Shown here piece after piece: positions 15,291-34,984 of a DNA stretch of 35,277 nt (its first letter is position 1; every line of letters begins with the position of its first letter). A program made the position numbers and the translations under genes. Source of the stretch: a virus. The DNA is taken from positions 1 through 35,277 of the IMG/VR virus record IMGVR_UViG_3300047469_000387; one strand, 5' to 3'. The notes under the pieces were generated by a model that was not told where the DNA came from, ran no database searches, and was given only the letters and a program-made list of their open reading frames with translations.

Positions 15291-15493
15291 TTGCTGGCCT
15301 CCATTAGCTGAGCGTGGACAGCATCAATGCTCACCTGACCACTGTCGTTTGTGCCCGGAATATGTATCTCCTGACCTGAGGTCATGGTCAGCACCAAGGC
15401 CCGGCCTCCACCGACCAAATAGGTGATCTTCATCGAGCTGATATCGCCGGGCTGAACCGCCAATTTGCTTCGAGGATCGATCAGAACCATCAT
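15287..15493 (-). CDS. Small hypothetical phage protein (68 aa)
   Basis: Start ATG 15493 overlaps the recombinase stop (ATGA) and has GAGG 7 bases upstream. The sequence is a compact beta-rich pattern (MKITYLVGGGRALVLTMTS, then QEIHIPGTNDSG) followed by a C-terminal helix. No motif recognised. Its tight coupling on both sides supports it as a gene. Confidence 0.7.
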   Translation of the reverse strand: MMVLIDPRSKLAVQPGDISSMKITYLVGGGRALVLTMTSGQEIHIPGTNDSGQVSIDAVHAQLMEASK

Positions 15494-16779
15494 TTTGAAA
15501 CCTCGCCTATGGTTGATTCGCGGGAAGGCTCGCAGCCCTTATCAAACGTGGCTTCCAGAGGATTACCAGAATCTCCGAATCTATCCTCTGTCAACTTATG
15601 GATGAGGGTCAGGCCCTTGCTATCTAACAGTGTGTGCCAGCGTTCCAAGGCATCCCGCTTGCGGCTCATCACGTCCGACTGGATGTACACCTTCACGTTG
15701 TGGCCCATCGCATGGTTGATCAGCAGCTCACCGATCAGATGGTCAATACCGATGTCTGCCCAGCCGGTGCGCGCCACCTTGCGTAAGTCGTGGCTGGTCC
15801 AGTCACCACCACCCAGCCGGGCAAAGACGGCGCTGGCCTGGCCTTCGCTCAGTGGTTTGCCGTTGCGGGCCGAGAACAGGTACTGACCGTCGTAGCCGTT
15901 CGCGTGCTGCCATTCGCGGTAACGGATGAGGATGGCGCAGACCTGCTCAGTCAGAGGCAGGTGATGCTCGACGCCGGTCTTCGTGTGCTCGCCAGGGATG
16001 AACCACTCGCGCTCGGCCAACGTAATGTGTGGCCACTGCGCCAACCGGCTTTCACCGATCCGCGTGCCGTGGCAGAGCATCAGCAGCGCCAGCATGGCGT
16101 CCTTGGGGCTGCTGTCGAACACATGCGCCAGCTGCGTCAGAAGGTCAGAGAGTTGCACGCCGCGCAGCCTCGACGGCTTGATTCCGACCCGGGCCTTCGA
16201 GAAGTCGCTGAACTTGATGTCTTTCATCGGGTTCGCCGTGATCAGGCCCAACCGGTATGCCTGCCGGAACGCCAGCGCCAGCAGCTGGAAGACCAGCCGC
16301 ACGTAATCGATGGAAAGCGTTTCCTGTAGCGGCCACATCAGCTCGGTGTCCAGCGTGGCCTTGGTTATGTCGATAAGACGTGTATCTGCCAGGCGCGGGC
16401 GCAAGTGGCACTTTATCGCCGAGGCGCCGGTCTTCTTGCGCTTGGCTGACAGGTTTCGGTCTTTCGACATCCGGTCGGCGTACCAGTCCAGCAGCTCACC
16501 GGTGGTTTCCCACTTCGACAGCGCCGTGCGGGCGCCCTCTTCCACTCGAAGCCTGATGCCGGGCAACGCCGCGACGACCTGCTTGGTGGTCAGCTCGGGG
16601 AACGCGCCGATCCGGCTCCAACGGCGCTTGCGGACGAGATACCAGACCGGGCGCGACCTGTCCTGACCGAACCGCAGGTACAGGCCCTTGTTTTCCACAT
16701 CGCGCAGATCCCGGACGGTTCCAGCTGCCTGCCGCTTGATCTCCGGATCGGTAATTTTCACCGCTGCTGTGCTGGTCAT
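15490..16779 (-). CDS. Tyrosine recombinase (second, internal integrase-like protein)
   Basis: 429-aa phage integrase-family protein. Residues 5-90 look like the N-terminal arm-binding domain of the DUF4102 type (ENKGLYLRFGQDRSRPVWYL, then SRIGAFPELTTKQV), followed by a SAM-like core-binding domain. In the catalytic domain the first Arg is in CHGTRIGESRLAQW, the HxxR in WTSHDLRKVART, the second His-type box in LLINHAMGHN, and the nucleophile Tyr probably in KVYIQSD. It is locked by overlaps between VRR-NUC and a small gene in the lytic arm, far from the attachment site, so it is probably not the integrase of this prophage. A recombination or resolution role is inferred. Confidence 0.85.
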   Translation of the reverse strand: MTSTAAVKITDPEIKRQAAGTVRDLRDVENKGLYLRFGQDRSRPVWYLVRKRRWSRIGAFPELTTKQVVAALPGIRLRVEEGARTALSKWETTGELLDWYADRMSKDRNLSAKRKKTGASAIKCHLRPRLADTRLIDITKATLDTELMWPLQETLSIDYVRLVFQLLALAFRQAYRLGLITANPMKDIKFSDFSKARVGIKPSRLRGVQLSDLLTQLAHVFDSSPKDAMLALLMLCHGTRIGESRLAQWPHITLAEREWFIPGEHTKTGVEHHLPLTEQVCAILIRYREWQHANGYDGQYLFSARNGKPLSEGQASAVFARLGGGDWTSHDLRKVARTGWADIGIDHLIGELLINHAMGHNVKVYIQSDVMSRKRDALERWHTLLDSKGLTLIHKLTEDRFGDSGNPLEATFDKGCEPSRESTIGEVSK

Positions 16780-17207
16780 GCTGCCACCACGGTCTGAGGG
16801 AGCTTGAGATAAGCCCGGATCTGCTCCATGGCGTCGAAGTGGCCCCGGCACACAATGGCGAGATAGCCCTGCTCGCTCAGTTTGCGAATCCATGCGTGCT
16901 GACTTTCCGAAACCTGCGCAGCGTTCGGTGGCGTGGCCTTGAACTCCAGATACAGGCCGAAATAACCGCCACGGGCCATCGGTAGCACCAGGTCAGGTAC
17001 GCCCGCTTTCACGCCTTGCTCTTTCAGCTTGATAGCGACCAGCTTGTGCCGCTGCCCTCCGTTGGGGACGTGATAGATCAACGCCTCGACGGCGGGCATG
17101 CGCAGTTTCAATTCCCGCAACAGTGCAGCCTGTTCCAAACCCTCACGGTCGACAGGTTTGGCGCGGGTGCGCTTCGGCTTAAACAGCGTCGGTTTTGAGA
17201 GAGTCAC
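16776..17207 (-). CDS. VRR-NUC domain nuclease
   Basis: 143-aa nuclease of the VRR-NUC (PD-(D/E)xK) family. Active-site elements are GVPDL (Pro71-Asp72) and LEFKA (Glu88, Lys90), with QVSESQHAWIRKL after them, as expected. Stand-alone VRR-NUC proteins of phages are thought to cut branched DNA such as Holliday junctions. GTG 17207 overlaps the YbcO stop as GTGA; no closer ATG fits. Confidence 0.9.
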   Translation of the reverse strand: MTLSKPTLFKPKRTRAKPVDREGLEQAALLRELKLRMPAVEALIYHVPNGGQRHKLVAIKLKEQGVKAGVPDLVLPMARGGYFGLYLEFKATPPNAAQVSESQHAWIRKLSEQGYLAIVCRGHFDAMEQIRAYLKLPQTVVAA

Positions 17208-23234: not shown

Positions 23235-23681
23235 ATGTTCGGAATTTTTGGAAAGAAGTTTAAGAAGGCGTCGGCCGAGGCCACTGCGGCCATGGCGAAG
23301 AACGTGAACCGCGACCTGATGCAAGCTGTGGTTTACGGCGCGATCTTCATCGCGGCTGCCGACGGCGACCTGGCCGAATCAGAACTCAAGAAAACCGAGA
23401 AGCTGATCGCCAACAACCCACTGCTCAAAGGCTTCGGCGCCGAACTGAGCGACACCATCGACCGTGCCGAAGCTGACTTCAAAGACGGCGGCCGCCGGAT
23501 CCTGCGCCAGAACGCAGAGAAAGAACTGAGCGATCTGAAGCACTCGCCGGAAGAGGCGAAGACGGTCATGAACATCATGCTGACCATCGCTGACGAGGGC
23601 GGCATCGATGACGCCGAGCGGAAAGCGCTGGAGCAGGCTGCGAAGTGGCTCGGCCTGAACCTGAAAGACTTCGAAGACTGA
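23235..23681 (+). CDS. TerB-like (tellurite resistance TerB family) protein
   Basis: 148-aa protein, first gene of the rightward early operon. A helical TerB fold is suggested by two acidic motifs: IFIAAADGDLAESELKKTEK (from about residue 37) and LTIADEGGIDDAERKALEQA (from about residue 116), each like the metal-binding loops of TerB. The family is named for tellurite resistance but is widespread in phages, where the role is unknown. TGAGG lies 7 bases before the ATG. Confidence 0.85.
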   Translation: MFGIFGKKFKKASAEATAAMAKNVNRDLMQAVVYGAIFIAAADGDLAESELKKTEKLIANNPLLKGFGAELSDTIDRAEADFKDGGRRILRQNAEKELSDLKHSPEEAKTVMNIMLTIADEGGIDDAERKALEQAAKWLGLNLKDFED

Positions 23682-25300: not shown

Positions 25301-26113
25301 ATGTCACTGACCAAAGAAGCAATCCAGCTCATCACCGATACCGCGCTTGAAGCAACCGGCAAGTCGCTGAACACTTTCACGCCCACCGCCGTGCTGCCCG
25401 AAGGCGCAAAAGTGCTGGATCTGGAGAAATACCAGGAAGGCCGCAGCCGTTTCAGGGGTGTCTACTCCACGCACGCCCTGGCCGACTTCAGCGCTTACGT
25501 CGTGGACCGCGCCGAAGAAGGCGCGCGCGGCTTCATCAATCAGGACGAGATGAGCTGCGTAGTCCTCTTCAACCTGGGCACCACCAAGGCACCGGGCCAC
25601 GCGGACGACCGCGCCGTGCTCAAACTCAAGCCAACCGCCGGTTATGCCGCTGCGCAGGCCGTTGCCGGTAACCGTCTGGCTCAAAAGGATCTCAGCGACT
25701 GGATCGAGGACTGGCACCAGTACCTGACGCCAGTTGATGATCAAGGCAACGCCATCCCAGTCGCGAAGGCAATCGCGGCGGTCCGTACCATCACCGTGAA
25801 GGCCACCAGCGAATCGGAAACCACCGTTGGCGACACCAGCGCCAGCCGTAGCGCCATGGATCAGATCGAGGCGCGCAGCAAAGAAACACTGCCTACGGCG
25901 CTTCAGTTTCACACGATCCCATTCGAGGGCTTGACTGAACAGTTGATCACGTTGCGCATCTCGGTGATCACCAGTGGCGCACAGCCAGTTCTGAAACTGC
26001 GCTGGGTCGGCGAGGAAGTGCAGCGCGAAGCGATTGCTCAGGAATTCAAGGCAGTGCTGGAAGACCGGATCGGTGAATCAGCCAAGTTGGTTCTGGGCGG
26101 ATTTGTATTGTAA
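25301..26113 (+). CDS. DUF2303-family protein (YfdQ-like)
   Basis: 270-aa protein with the DUF2303 pattern: YSTHALADFSAYVVDRAEEG near residue 55, a middle LSDWIEDWHQYLTPVDDQGN, and a C-terminal strand-rich part ending LKLRWVGEEVQREAIAQEF. The family is common in prophages and early regions, without a known activity. Start ATG 25301 has GAAGAGAAA upstream. It is the last gene before the oppositely oriented membrane-protein gene. Confidence 0.88.
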   Translation: MSLTKEAIQLITDTALEATGKSLNTFTPTAVLPEGAKVLDLEKYQEGRSRFRGVYSTHALADFSAYVVDRAEEGARGFINQDEMSCVVLFNLGTTKAPGHADDRAVLKLKPTAGYAAAQAVAGNRLAQKDLSDWIEDWHQYLTPVDDQGNAIPVAKAIAAVRTITVKATSESETTVGDTSASRSAMDQIEARSKETLPTALQFHTIPFEGLTEQLITLRISVITSGAQPVLKLRWVGEEVQREAIAQEFKAVLEDRIGESAKLVLGGFVL

Positions 26114-26123
26114 TTAACTAAAT

Positions 26124-26150
26124 ATGCGTGACGCATAAGTCGTCACGCAT
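26124..26150. terminator. Perfect 10-bp inverted repeat between convergent genes
   Basis: ATGCGTGACG and CGTCACGCAT flank a 7-base loop. It lies 11 bases after the DUF2303 stop and 15 bases before the end of the minus-strand gene. It may act as a two-way terminator, though the T-tracts are poor on both sides; a protein-binding site is also possible. Confidence 0.5.
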
Positions 26151-26164
26151 ACCAAACACCAACC

Positions 26165-26824
26165 CTACACACATGATATTTTTTTTCTTAATCCATAAAG
26201 CTCTGACATATCCTCTAGGCGACCCAAAACAAATTTTTTATATTTCTCCACATCCCCATCCCCTCTACTGTTGGCCGAGCCTAACAAAATATTTGGATCG
26301 AGGAGTTCAGCTGAAATTTCCGAAAATGATGAATGTGACTCAAGCCCTTTTCGAGCAGGGCCGCCCCACATGGTTGTAGACAAATAAAGCGTTTGCAGCA
26401 TCAAATCGATTACCTCTATGAAATCGTTCTTCAGGATACTTGTTGCGCCGATTCTCTCGGCCTCATGCACTATTCTCCAGAAGTCAGACTCTATTGCGCT
26501 TAACCCTTTAGTCCATGGCAGATGAGCATTGATGAAGGGCTTGGCATGTAGCATTAATCTCAGTATTTCTATCTGAGTAACCTTTAAGAGGTTAACGGAA
26601 GCAACAACATCATTTCTTACCTCCCTTAGCTTAACCAAGTTGCCAGCTATAGAGAATTCCTGAACTTCAGCTGCAAACGAAACCAATAAGCCTATTACCG
26701 CAAATGCGATCATCAACGCCACAAATTCTGAACCCGCAATCATTTGTCTGTTCAGCAGGTACAAACCTAAACCCGCTGTACTCAAAAAAATAATTGCCCC
26801 AACAGCTGTTAAAGCCTTCTTCAT
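26165..26824 (-). CDS. AT-rich membrane protein of unknown function (moron candidate)
   Basis: 219-aa protein encoded against the direction of its neighbours. Two membrane helices at residues 4-26 (LTAVGAIIFLSTAGLGLYLL) and 31-55 (FVALMIAFAVIGLLVSFAAE), then a cytoplasmic-looking helical domain to residue 219 with no motif I recognise. ATG 26824 is used: GAGGGAG lies 6 bases upstream. Codon use is clearly more AT-rich than the flanking genes, suggesting acquisition from elsewhere. Probably expressed from its own promoter in the lysogen; superinfection exclusion or defence is a reasonable guess only. Confidence 0.75.
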   Translation of the reverse strand: MKKALTAVGAIIFLSTAGLGLYLLNRQMIAGSEFVALMIAFAVIGLLVSFAAEVQEFSIAGNLVKLREVRNDVVASVNLLKVTQIEILRLMLHAKPFINAHLPWTKGLSAIESDFWRIVHEAERIGATSILKNDFIEVIDLMLQTLYLSTTMWGGPARKGLESHSSFSEISAELLDPNILLGSANSRGDGDVEKYKKFVLGRLEDMSELYGLRKKISCV

Positions 26825-26877
26825 CACGCTCCCTCGATTGGCATCAGACTCATCGGTAACAAATACCCCACTTCCAC

Positions 26878-26903
26878 GAATCACGCCACTGGCGAGGATC
26901 AGC
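26878..26903 (+). repeat. 26-base direct repeat, copy 1 (leader of the PP-loop gene)
   Basis: Identical to 28727-28752. It contains the small hairpin CGCC-ACT-GGCG and the ribosome site GAGGA. Each copy ends just before a start codon. Confidence 0.85.
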
Positions 26904-26904
26904 G

Positions 26905-27675
26905 ATGTCCGAAATATCGAAAGCTCCCGTCATGGTCAGCTATGGCGGCGGAACGAACAGCACGTCGATGCTGGTGGAAATGGTCAGACGCGGCGAACAC
27001 GTAGACCTGATCACCTTCGCGGATACCGGTGGTGAGGGCCAAAAGATCTACGACTACATCAGGCTCTTTAGTACCTGGCTGCAAGAGCAAGGCTTCCCGC
27101 CGATTATCACGGTAAAAAAAGGTGGTCGAGTGGAAACGCTTGAAGAGAACTGCCTGCGCATGAAGATGCTTCCTAGCGTGGCGTACGGGTTCAAATCCTG
27201 CTCGCAGAAATTCAAGATTGAACCCCAGGAGAAGTTTGCCAACAACCACCCTCTGACGCTTGCTGGTTGGGGATCTGGATTGAAGGTCATCAAGTGCATC
27301 GGCTACGACGCAGGCGAGCCGCACAGAGCGAAGTTCCACGAAGACAAGAAGTACCATTGGCGTTATCCATTGCTTGAATGGGACATGGGTCGAGAAGAAT
27401 GCGTGGAATCGATTCGCGCCGCTGGTTTGCCACTGCCTGGTAAGAGCAGCTGTTTTTTCTGTCCTAACTCAAAGGTGCCTGAGATTCTGGCGCTGCCGGC
27501 TGATCTGCAAAACAGGGCAATCGCCATGGAGAGAAATGCCGAGCTGACTAGTATTAAGGGCCTTGGGCGGAGATGGCGCTGGGAGGATTTGATCGCGTCG
27601 GACCGGCAGCAGATGGACATGTTTTCTCAACCTGCCGACATGCCCTGCGGCTGTTACGACGGCGACGCCGCCTGA
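26905..27675 (+). CDS. PP-loop/PAPS-reductase-like protein
   Basis: 256-aa protein of the adenine-nucleotide alpha-hydrolase superfamily, the group of PAPS reductases, DndC and tRNA thiolation enzymes. The PP-loop is SYGGGTNS at residues 12-19, followed by ITFADTGGEGQKIYDYI and SVAYGFKSCSQKFK. Cys183/Cys186 (CFFC) and Cys248/Cys250 (CGC), with Cys99, could bind a metal or iron-sulphur cluster. It heads a block with two DNA methyltransferases, so a part in nucleic acid modification is possible; sulphate assimilation is less likely in this setting. GAGGA lies upstream of ATG 26905. Confidence 0.85.
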   Translation: MSEISKAPVMVSYGGGTNSTSMLVEMVRRGEHVDLITFADTGGEGQKIYDYIRLFSTWLQEQGFPPIITVKKGGRVETLEENCLRMKMLPSVAYGFKSCSQKFKIEPQEKFANNHPLTLAGWGSGLKVIKCIGYDAGEPHRAKFHEDKKYHWRYPLLEWDMGREECVESIRAAGLPLPGKSSCFFCPNSKVPEILALPADLQNRAIAMERNAELTSIKGLGRRWRWEDLIASDRQQMDMFSQPADMPCGCYDGDAA

Positions 27676-27870
27676 TCACTCCATCGCATCCACCGCCACC
27701 TCAATCTCATTGATGGCTATCGGCACATGCTCTGAGTCGTAAGCCTTGTATTGCAGTAGCTCGTCGGCGGCTGCTTCGGACAGCTCGTCCAGATTCAGGC
27801 CCTGCTTTCGCGCAACGCTGAGCACGGCCTTGAGTGCCAAGTGCAATCCCTTTTCCCTGTCTTCGCTCAT
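27676..27870 (-). CDS. Small hypothetical protein (64 aa), opposite strand
   Basis: ATG 27870 has GGAGGG 7 bases upstream; another ATG at 27876 lies too close to that site. The protein is helical and acidic (LALKAVLSVARKQGLNLDEL, then VPIAINEIEVAVDAM). No family known. It lies tail-to-tail with the PP-loop gene (adjacent stops) and head-to-head with the methyltransferase, within the rightward operon. Confidence 0.65.
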   Translation of the reverse strand: MSEDREKGLHLALKAVLSVARKQGLNLDELSEAAADELLQYKAYDSEHVPIAINEIEVAVDAME

Positions 27871-27916
27871 GACCATCCCTCCTGTGGAGGGGTAAGCGTA
27901 GGCCATTACCAACCGC

Positions 27917-28711
27917 ATGGAATCCACGATGGATTACGAACTGCACCTGGGCGATTGCCTTGAAGTACTGCGATCCCTGCCCGATGCCAGCGTCGACATG
28001 GTGCTGGCTGACCTACCCTACGGCACAACCCAGTGCGCGTGGGATGTGATTATTCCTTTCGCTCCGCTGTGGGAGCAGTACTTAAGGATTGCCAAGCCAA
28101 ACGCAGCCATCGTGCTATGCGCGGCGCAGCCATTCGCTTCCATGGTCGTCGCCAGCAACCCGGCGCACTACCGGTACGAATGGATTTGGGAGAAAGGCAA
28201 CGCTACCGGCTTCCTCAACGCCAAGAAGCAGCCGTTGCGGGCCCACGAAAGCGCGCAGGTCTTCTACCGGCGCCAGCCAACGTACAACCCGCAAATGTCC
28301 GGCGGGCACCAGCGCCGTACGGCAAAGCGGAAAACGGTCAACTCGGAGTGTTACGGCAAGGCGCTCTCACTCACCGAGTACGACTCAACAGATCGGTACC
28401 CGCGTTCAGTGCAGTACTTCAGAAGCGATAAACAGAAAGCCTCGTATCACCCTACGCAGAAGCCCGTTGCTTGGATGGCCTTCCTGATCGCCACTTACAC
28501 CAATCCGGGCCAGAGGGTGCTGGACAACACCATGGGTAGCGGAACGACTGGTGTCGCCTGCATGCAGCTCGGGCGACGATTCATCGGCATCGAGCGCGAC
28601 CTCGATGAGAAAGGCCAGCGGCTTGGTTACTTCGATCTGGCGGCCCATCGCATTGCAGAAGCCAAACAGATCGCCGACACGCCCTCGCCGCAACTCGAAA
28701 TTTTCGCCTGA
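27917..28711 (+). CDS. DNA methyltransferase, N6-adenine/N4-cytosine (beta class)
   Basis: 264-aa enzyme of the N6/N4 methyltransferase family. The catalytic motif is DLPY (residues 32-35, in VLADLPYGTT), placed before the AdoMet motif DNTMGSGTTG (residues 203-212), the beta-class order; HPTQKP at 178-183 is also typical. It would methylate an unknown DNA sequence, probably protecting phage DNA. No partner restriction gene is seen. Start: ATG 27917 without a clear ribosome site, or ATG 27929 with GGAA upstream. Confidence 0.9.
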   Translation: MESTMDYELHLGDCLEVLRSLPDASVDMVLADLPYGTTQCAWDVIIPFAPLWEQYLRIAKPNAAIVLCAAQPFASMVVASNPAHYRYEWIWEKGNATGFLNAKKQPLRAHESAQVFYRRQPTYNPQMSGGHQRRTAKRKTVNSECYGKALSLTEYDSTDRYPRSVQYFRSDKQKASYHPTQKPVAWMAFLIATYTNPGQRVLDNTMGSGTTGVACMQLGRRFIGIERDLDEKGQRLGYFDLAAHRIAEAKQIADTPSPQLEIFA

Positions 28712-28726
28712 CCCCTTCCCCACTTT

Positions 28727-28752
28727 GAATCACGCCACTGGCGAGGATCAGC
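28727..28752 (+). repeat. 26-base direct repeat, copy 2 (leader of the C5 methyltransferase gene)
   Basis: Same 26 bases as 26878-26903, ending directly at the ATG. It is preceded by CCCCTTCCCCA, a pyrimidine-rich element found also before the DHH phosphoesterase gene. Confidence 0.85.
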
Positions 28753-33590: not shown

Positions 33591-33935
33591 ATGTCGACCG
33601 CAGAGAAACTGCCAGAAAATTACCAGGTAGATGTCGTTCCCGAAGAAAAGATGGCGGAACTGGTGTTCACGACTCGACGCGCGCTTCAGAGCAGGCGCGC
33701 AAGGGGCGTCATTCCAAAAGGGGTTTGGAACACGATTGATGGGAAGGTGTACTACAGCATCAGGAGATATGAGCAATGGCTCGAAAGCCTTTGGGATTGC
33801 CCACCGGAGTTGAATTCATCGGGCAAACGATCCGAATCCGGTTCACATGGAAGGGTCAGCGGCGATGTGAAACCCTCGGCCTTCCCCAGACGCCAAAGGG
33901 GATCAAAACCGCATCAGATCTACGTGCTAACGTAG
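33591..33935 (+). CDS. xis: Excisionase
   Basis: 114-aa protein just before and overlapping the integrase gene. The middle (LVFTTRRALQSRRARGVIPK then GVWNTIDGKVYYSIRRYEQW) has the winged-helix excisionase pattern, in which a helix is followed by a 'wing' and YSIRRYEQWLES. It would direct the integrase to excise the prophage. GGAGG lies 7 bases before ATG 33591. The Ser/Arg-rich last 40 residues are read through the start of int in another frame. Confidence 0.85.
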   Translation: MSTAEKLPENYQVDVVPEEKMAELVFTTRRALQSRRARGVIPKGVWNTIDGKVYYSIRRYEQWLESLWDCPPELNSSGKRSESGSHGRVSGDVKPSAFPRRQRGSKPHQIYVLT

Positions 33936-34984
33936 TCAACCTCGCAAAACTCGGCGTGCTTGATGACAACAGGTACGCCGAATTCTTCCCAAACTCCAGC
34001 TACGCAATATCGTCGGCGATGCCCACATTCGCCGCGTACGCTCAGAGCTGGCTCAACGAGCGCAACATCGTCAAAGGGACGAGGGACAACTACCTCACGT
34101 CCCTGAACCTGTACTGGATGCCGGTTCTCGCGCCGCTGCCAATTGATCAGATCAGCTCGACGTTCATGCGCAAGGTGGTGGGTGAGATCGAATGGACGAC
34201 CACCCAGGTTAAGCGATCAGCGCTTCAGCGTCTCAACCCAATCTTCGAAACAGCGGTGCTCGATGGCCTCATCACAAGGAACCCACTGTCATCGATTGAA
34301 ACCCCATCGCCTGGCAGGAAAGATATCGACCCTTTTTCCGTAGACGAAGCGAACAGGATAGTGGCTCACATGTACGAGAAACTTCCGAAGTCGGTGAAGA
34401 TCTACGCTGTTTTAGCGGAGTTCGCATTTTTTACGGGCATGCGCCCCGGCGAGATTTATGCGCTGCAGTGGAACGATATCGATCTGGTCAAGCGGACTGC
34501 CCACGTGTACAAAATCGTTGCCGAGAGGCAAATCGAGATGCGTACGAAAACGAAACACGACAGGTTGGTGATGCTGAACAGCCGAGCGCTTCATGCGCTT
34601 GATGTGGCGAAAGAGATCGCCGCCATCAGGTCCAACCAATCATGGCGACAGGTTAGGAATTCGAGCTATGTATTTCCGCCCTCACGCCGACATGACTTCA
34701 TCCGCGACACATCGGTGACCGCCAGCTTCTTCGACGCTGCGGTAGATGAGTTGGCTATCCGGTCGCGCCCACAATACAATTGCCGCCATACCTACGCGAC
34801 CATGTGCCTGATGGCCAGCATGAACCCGGCGTTCATTGCCAGCCAGCTTGGACACAGCGTCCGGATGCTGCTCTCGACGTACGCCCGCTGGATCAACTCC
34901 ACAAATGACTGGAGTGAGATTGAAAAGCTGGAAGGTACGTTGAGTGGTACAAAATCGGTACGAGAAGACAACGACACGGTGTGA
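33776..34984 (+). CDS. int: Integrase (tyrosine recombinase)
   Basis: 402-aa integrase at the prophage end. Residues 5-60 are an arm-binding domain (GVEFIGQTIRIRFTWKGQRR). Residues 75-165 form the core-binding domain. In the catalytic domain the first Arg is in FFTGMRPGEIYALQW, His-Arg in YNCRHTYATM, then ASQLGHS, and the nucleophile Tyr in LLSTYARWI. ATG 33776 has AGGAGA 9 bases upstream and lies within xis. Start of the attachment region follows directly. It is the likely enzyme of integration and excision. Confidence 0.95.
   Translation: MARKPLGLPTGVEFIGQTIRIRFTWKGQRRCETLGLPQTPKGIKTASDLRANVVNLAKLGVLDDNRYAEFFPNSSYAISSAMPTFAAYAQSWLNERNIVKGTRDNYLTSLNLYWMPVLAPLPIDQISSTFMRKVVGEIEWTTTQVKRSALQRLNPIFETAVLDGLITRNPLSSIETPSPGRKDIDPFSVDEANRIVAHMYEKLPKSVKIYAVLAEFAFFTGMRPGEIYALQWNDIDLVKRTAHVYKIVAERQIEMRTKTKHDRLVMLNSRALHALDVAKEIAAIRSNQSWRQVRNSSYVFPPSRRHDFIRDTSVTASFFDAAVDELAIRSRPQYNCRHTYATMCLMASMNPAFIASQLGHSVRMLLSTYARWINSTNDWSEIEKLEGTLSGTKSVREDNDTV

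Follow-up and report, generated by a model that had tools for sequence, protein, structure and literature searches.

A positional precedent for the gene described here is sieB of phage P22, an exclusion gene that sits among the early-left genes but on the other strand and has its own promoter; its product, of 192 aa, is hydrophobic in stretches near the N-terminus. Membrane-anchored proteins that act on injection are documented in P22 SieA, a small inner-membrane protein encoded antisense to late genes that blocks DNA injection (PMC10883804), and in the SNIPE nuclease (PMC13190303). In Salmonella RNA-seq work, an antisense position with its own promoter has been treated as typical of moron loci (PMC7067206). 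The putAbiC family (PF16872) of putative phage abortive infection proteins combines an N-terminal TM pair with a helical C-terminus, and phrog_8083, a protein family annotated as of unknown function, has relatives in temperate phages of Acinetobacter such as Ab105-1phi, vB_AbaS_Ftm and vB_AbaSI_1.

The gene under study, here called gene Q, lies in a complete IMG/VR record of 35,277 bases, which was analyzed over its whole length and is referred to as the window. Its gene content, which includes terminase, major capsid, tape measure, repressor, CII-like, anti-repressor and integrase proteins, shows the source of the window to be a siphophage-like virus of temperate habit, or a prophage of such a virus. 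Similar phage DNA was found in Pseudomonas phages only (74–75% over 0.6–0.9 kb), and the host is most likely a Pseudomonas. The record carries two integrase genes, both phrog_1 (15490–16893, minus strand, and 33776–34984, plus strand), the latter adjoining an excisionase gene (33591–33935), and a plus-strand tellurite-resistance gene at 23235–23681 (TerB-like, phrog_632) annotated as a moron or host takeover function.

Table 1. Positions of gene Q and the associated features within the window.
Feature	Position	Strand	Description
DUF2303 gene (phrog_210)	25301–26113	+	Pfam/PHROGs match; left border of the slot
Inverted repeat	26123–26151		Perfect 11-bp arms (26123–26133 and 26141–26151) around a 7-nt loop; separates the facing stop codons of DUF2303 and Q
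Gene Q	26165–26824	−	Intact 219-aa ORF; stop 26165–26167, ATG 26822–26824
Upstream element, window copy TGGCGTGATTCGTGGAAGTGGGGTATT	26862–26888	−	One mismatch to the core; ends 37 nt before the ATG of Q
PP-loop/PAPS-reductase-like gene (phrog_424)	26905–27675	+	PHROGs match; divergent from Q and bordering the slot on the right
Eroded second element copy TCCTCGCCAGTGGCGTGATTCAAAGTGGGG...	28702–28747	−	3-nt deletion; between the N4/N6- and C5-methyltransferase genes

Gene Q interrupts a plus-strand, early-type run made up of a phrog_204 gene, DUF2303, the PP-loop/PAPS-reductase-like gene and two DNA methyltransferase genes, and is oriented against it (Table 1). Its GC content is 0.421 overall and 0.43 at third codon positions, vs. 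0.546–0.631 and 0.66–0.73 for seven other genes of the window, and the minimum of the GC profile (0.417 in 600-base windows) falls at 26101–26700. A reading made earlier from the letters alone (the sequence-only reading) had described an AT-rich gene opposed to a rightward operon, and both points were borne out. The start codon was placed at the ATG rather than at an in-frame GTG at 26884, which would give a product of 239 aa, because the ATG is preceded by a Shine-Dalgarno-like GAGGGA, the family alignment begins near it, and the upstream element would otherwise become coding sequence. The same reading had Q bounded by a perfect inverted repeat; the repeat is real, but it is present on the 3′ side only. 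A terminator scan of the window returned sites no more numerous than in shuffled sequence, and inspection by eye of the downstream flanks of nine Q homologues revealed no obvious counterpart. Given these three observations, we do not regard the repeat as an insertion boundary; a terminator is possible. As a repeated operator it was rejected, since the window offers no other good copy and the match count is not above chance.

We compared the region downstream of DUF2303 in 80 viral contigs carrying a close DUF2303 relative. The counts are approximate, as ORF calling followed a simple longest-ORF rule and near-duplicate loci are included. Of the ORFs of at least 95 aa whose start lies no more than 250 bp downstream of DUF2303, 58 were on the minus strand and six on the plus strand, and the median GC content of the minus-strand slot ORFs was 0.465, vs. 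0.586–0.595 for plus-strand genes in other parts of the loci. An AT-rich antisense ORF was found near DUF2303 in 60 of the 80 loci, and the 72 such ORFs fell into 49 sequence clusters (E 1e-5). A single locus (L087) held, at this position and likewise antisense, a clear homologue of Q (31% identity over 153 aa); in others Q is replaced by different genes. The sequence-only reading had taken Q for a moron and proposed asking whether the slot holds different genes in related prophages. It does, Q is neither fixed among relatives nor matched to its neighbors in composition, and a promoter-like element lies just upstream of it. We therefore regard it as nearly certain that Q occupies a moron slot, a published description of which we did not find in a literature search. 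Slot, composition, orientation and upstream element together indicate an accessory gene that is probably expressed independently, most plausibly in the lysogen. A further antisense ORF of 83 aa lies at 27676–27927 on the minus strand; its tblastn relatives occur in many DUF2303 loci, always antisense and as many as three or four at a time (L021, L089), and form a repeated small gene family.

Slot genes without protein similarity to one another have in common an upstream sequence with the core TGGCGTGATTCGTTGAAGTGGGGTATT. A first scan of 1.6 Mb gave 54 matches, vs. zero after shuffling, and a consensus, CCTCGCCGGCTGGCGTGATTCGTTGAAGTGGGGTATTTGTG, was derived from 188 distinct contexts (300 loci, 2.7 Mb); the element includes the parts GGGGTATT and TGGCGTGATT. 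The window contains one core match, with one mismatch, vs. zero in shuffles, and the weight-matrix score of this copy is 47.8, vs. a shuffle maximum of −4.7. Across the 188 contexts the element precedes the ORF start by a median of 39 nt (middle half 35–41), and the 103 ORFs of at least 90 aa behind elements form 61 clusters. Of 180 elements, 145 were followed at 22–65 nt by a start codon that opens an ORF of at least 40 aa and has a Shine-Dalgarno-like sequence before it, vs. 7.1% of random positions, and each of the 43 copies from loci oriented by DUF2303 lies on the minus strand. The exact core is present in at least 120 stretches of IMG/VR, and 14 of the 16 phage records matching the element are Pseudomonas phages; it also occurs in one of 390 genomes of an Acinetobacter-centered order sample, a figure that says nothing about Pseudomonas. 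The element string was not found in the literature searched. The outer part, GATCCTCGCC, overlaps, as read from the sequence, the Shine-Dalgarno region of the plus-strand gene that diverges from Q, and because of this coincidence may be conserved for another reason.

Upstream of other slot genes, including the Q homologues L107, L108, L109, L113, L115, L117 and L243, there is a second, compact cassette with a −10-like TATAGT, followed by an ORF in 15 of 16 cases. We read both the element and this cassette as putative promoters. For the element, this reading rests on position and is in our judgment likely; it did not score as a sigma-70 promoter, and a sigma-54 reading, considered by eye, was set aside since a −24-like TGGC is present but neither the spacing nor the −12 GC fits. 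The near-identity of some 27 bp ahead of unrelated genes, and the eroded copy in the window, behind which no antisense gene was recognized, would also be expected if the element were a recombination site or repeated operator for gene exchange in the slot, a role that would be compatible with Q as a moron. We consider such a role improbable: the fixed distance to the start codon, the consistent orientation and the shared leader argue for expression, and the sigma-70-like cassette occupies the equivalent position ahead of other slot genes and of family members. The eroded copy may mark a lost moron. In 83 of the 188 contexts (e.g., L051, L029), the presumed leader holds a hairpin, CCGGC-loop-GCCGG, before the start codon, most commonly with the loop AUGGA; a leader hairpin with GGA in its loop resembles RsmA/CsrA sites. 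The leader of Q does not contain this hairpin.

The genes that share the slot and the element bear on what Q might do. Pfam matches among the 61 slot proteins included DUF2971 (four), putAbiC (two) and one each of HEPN_AbiU2, DUF5677, DUF3800, DUF4238, PIN, 8xMP, a HYD1-type ADP-ribosyltransferase domain and DUF6082. We count putAbiC, HEPN_AbiU2, DUF2971, DUF3800, DUF4238, DUF5677 and PIN as defense-type matches. Around three quarters of the slot proteins matched nothing in Pfam (member-family matches numbered at most 14 for the 61). PADLOC recovered AbiP, a TIR effector, PDC-S31, PDC-M14B and PDC-M07B, the PDC models being candidate families and not proven systems. A second set of 40 ORFs, picked by the upstream element alone, again included putAbiC, DUF2971, AbiP and PDC-S31. 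Control searches with 61 plus-strand genes of the same loci also gave PADLOC matches (all methyltransferases among the 25 of 72 matches listed), and the apparent enrichment of defense-type matches among slot genes is for this reason qualitative only. Moron slots generally also carry lysogenic-conversion genes with benefits other than defense, such as in envelope stress, metabolism or competition, and many slot proteins here have no match; that Q is a gene of this kind nevertheless seems unlikely to us, as the recognizable slot mates belong mainly to abortive-infection or candidate defense families.

Searched as a single sequence against the viral contigs, Q found nothing. The sequence-only reading could assign it to no family; that statement is superseded by a match to phrog_8083 (E 3.6e-18, Q residues 11–93 to positions 18–100 of the 226 in the profile). 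A profile built from nine sequences retrieved 60 loci in viral contigs, and matched in seven of the 390 Acinetobacter-order genomes, the query genome counted. By match to a 24-sequence profile at 1e-6, the family has at least 40 distinct sequences, with GC contents of 28–49% within loci of 35–59%. Residues 1–93 are more conserved than the remainder in all 276 family pairs (mean identity 0.41 vs. 0.21), and E56, S58, K65 and L66 (window numbering) are invariant across 24 aligned members. In the pair L003/L005, N-terminal identity is 0.92 and C-terminal identity 0.28 although, N-terminally, the two differ at 14 of 37 fourfold sites, which points to an anchor under constraint and a tail that is rapidly changing or exchanged. 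Such a pattern is as expected of an anchor joined to a diversifying specificity domain.

The Acinetobacter phage members of phrog_8083 resemble Q in the two-helix anchor, the motif EVQEFSIxGNxVKL, similar length and AT-rich composition, and differ from it in a strongly diverged C-terminal domain and in genome position, lying after the antiterminator Q gene and on the same strand. In Pseudomonas-like loci, family genes are mostly antisense to their neighbors. At four Acinetobacter chromosome loci the homologue follows a gene of ∼1,280 codons, which PHROGs did not recognize in the one case scanned (L003), so that these loci are not established as prophages. At L112 (3218–4690, plus strand), two diverged family copies stand in tandem. 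In L108, L109, L113, L114, L115 and L117, the homologue adjoins, in divergent orientation, a gene for a 618–719-aa protein with a C5-methyltransferase domain; it is likewise the gene after DUF2303 at loci in which we called no AT-rich antisense gene.

These neighborhoods bear on two further explanations. The two TM helices, together with the place of the Acinetobacter homologues after the antiterminator, near the start of the late region, would suit a lysis-related or early lytic membrane protein of holin or anti-holin type acting in the lytic cycle. We give this very little weight: in the window and its relatives the gene runs opposite to the early operon, its product has a large, probably cytoplasmic domain, it is patchily distributed and AT-rich, and no lysis gene was recognized among the neighbors examined. 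Q might also be the membrane part of a toxin-antitoxin or multi-gene defense system with partners elsewhere, as a second AT-rich gene near the L113 homologue and another element-driven ORF at the L243 locus could suggest, but no constant partner gene was seen across the homologues examined, and we consider such a system doubtful, though somewhat less so than a lytic role.

The protein itself has hydrophobic stretches at residues ∼3–25 and ∼27–52, and the AlphaFold2 model (mean pLDDT 87.6, pTM 0.66) places helices at 2–25, 31–49 and 51–94, followed by five shorter ones. The layout is thus two TM helices (∼2–25 and ∼31–49), the juxtamembrane motif EVQEFSIAGNLVKL (residues 53–66), a long helix to ∼94 and a variable helical C-terminal domain, in agreement with the two-helix anchor and helical domain noted from the sequence earlier. 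The product is probably an inner-membrane protein with its C-terminal domain in the cytoplasm. Q matched no Pfam family, no PADLOC-DB 2.0.0 family at E 5 and no nuclease, and the best hit to PDB sequences with the Q family profile (E 0.086) was chance-like. The structure search that the sequence-only reading had proposed, run with Foldseek against PDB and BFVD, gave no relative at E 0.001 or better, and a second look with VIA-align gave a best Z of 7.5 to helical bundles, in the range expected of unrelated helical models.

Neither in sequence nor in fold did we find a match between Q and characterized exclusion proteins. SieB shares with Q a hydrophobic N-terminus, a cytoplasmic part (predicted for Q) and an orientation opposite to neighboring early genes, and is a positional precedent and possible functional analogue; its promoter is known, whereas that of Q is putative, and no homology was detected (hhalign probability 0.2%, 24-sequence profile against one SieB sequence). 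SieA is likewise a small inner-membrane protein, but has three predicted TM helices in 162–164 aa, in contrast to the two helices and large soluble domain of Q. The putAbiC proteins have a similar layout and occur in the same slot of relatives, and yet the PF16872 model matched neither Q nor 23 relatives at E 0.1 (hhalign 0.6%). Homology of Q to the putAbiC-like slot proteins, or to the two-TM slot protein of L055, was not detected.

On the strength of the slot mates and the sieB precedent, the most plausible function of Q is anti-phage, and we somewhat favor a lysogen-expressed inner-membrane exclusion or abortive-infection protein, carried as a moron in the slot. In the lysogen, the upstream element would drive Q in the direction opposite to the early operon, and the membrane anchor and variable helical domain suggest that it acts at the inner membrane. 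The two-helix anchor and juxtamembrane motif would form the common membrane part of the family, and the variable C-terminal domain would sense or block a component of the incoming phage at the membrane, perhaps the genome, the tail or an injected protein, with superinfection exclusion or membrane-triggered abortive infection as the outcome.

Antisense morons and membrane exclusion proteins were already known; what is new is a conserved element shared by unrelated slot genes. The Q family is in addition a new family of membrane proteins, found in Acinetobacter phages as well as Pseudomonas-like ones, in which the anchor is conserved and the C-terminal domain changes fast. We tentatively propose, at somewhat less than even confidence, a lineage of temperate Pseudomonas phages with a standard expression cassette, in which a short promoter-like element points in the direction opposite to the early operon and anti-phage genes are exchanged behind it at more than one genome position. 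If this is true, the element would serve as a tag for locating new prophage defense genes independently of protein homology, and Q would be one of dozens of candidate families behind it. Should the element be a dedicated lysogeny promoter, a scan with some 27 bases would list candidate Pseudomonas prophage defense genes, most of them without a family, and the element makes testable how prophages express defense genes without disturbing the repressed early operon.
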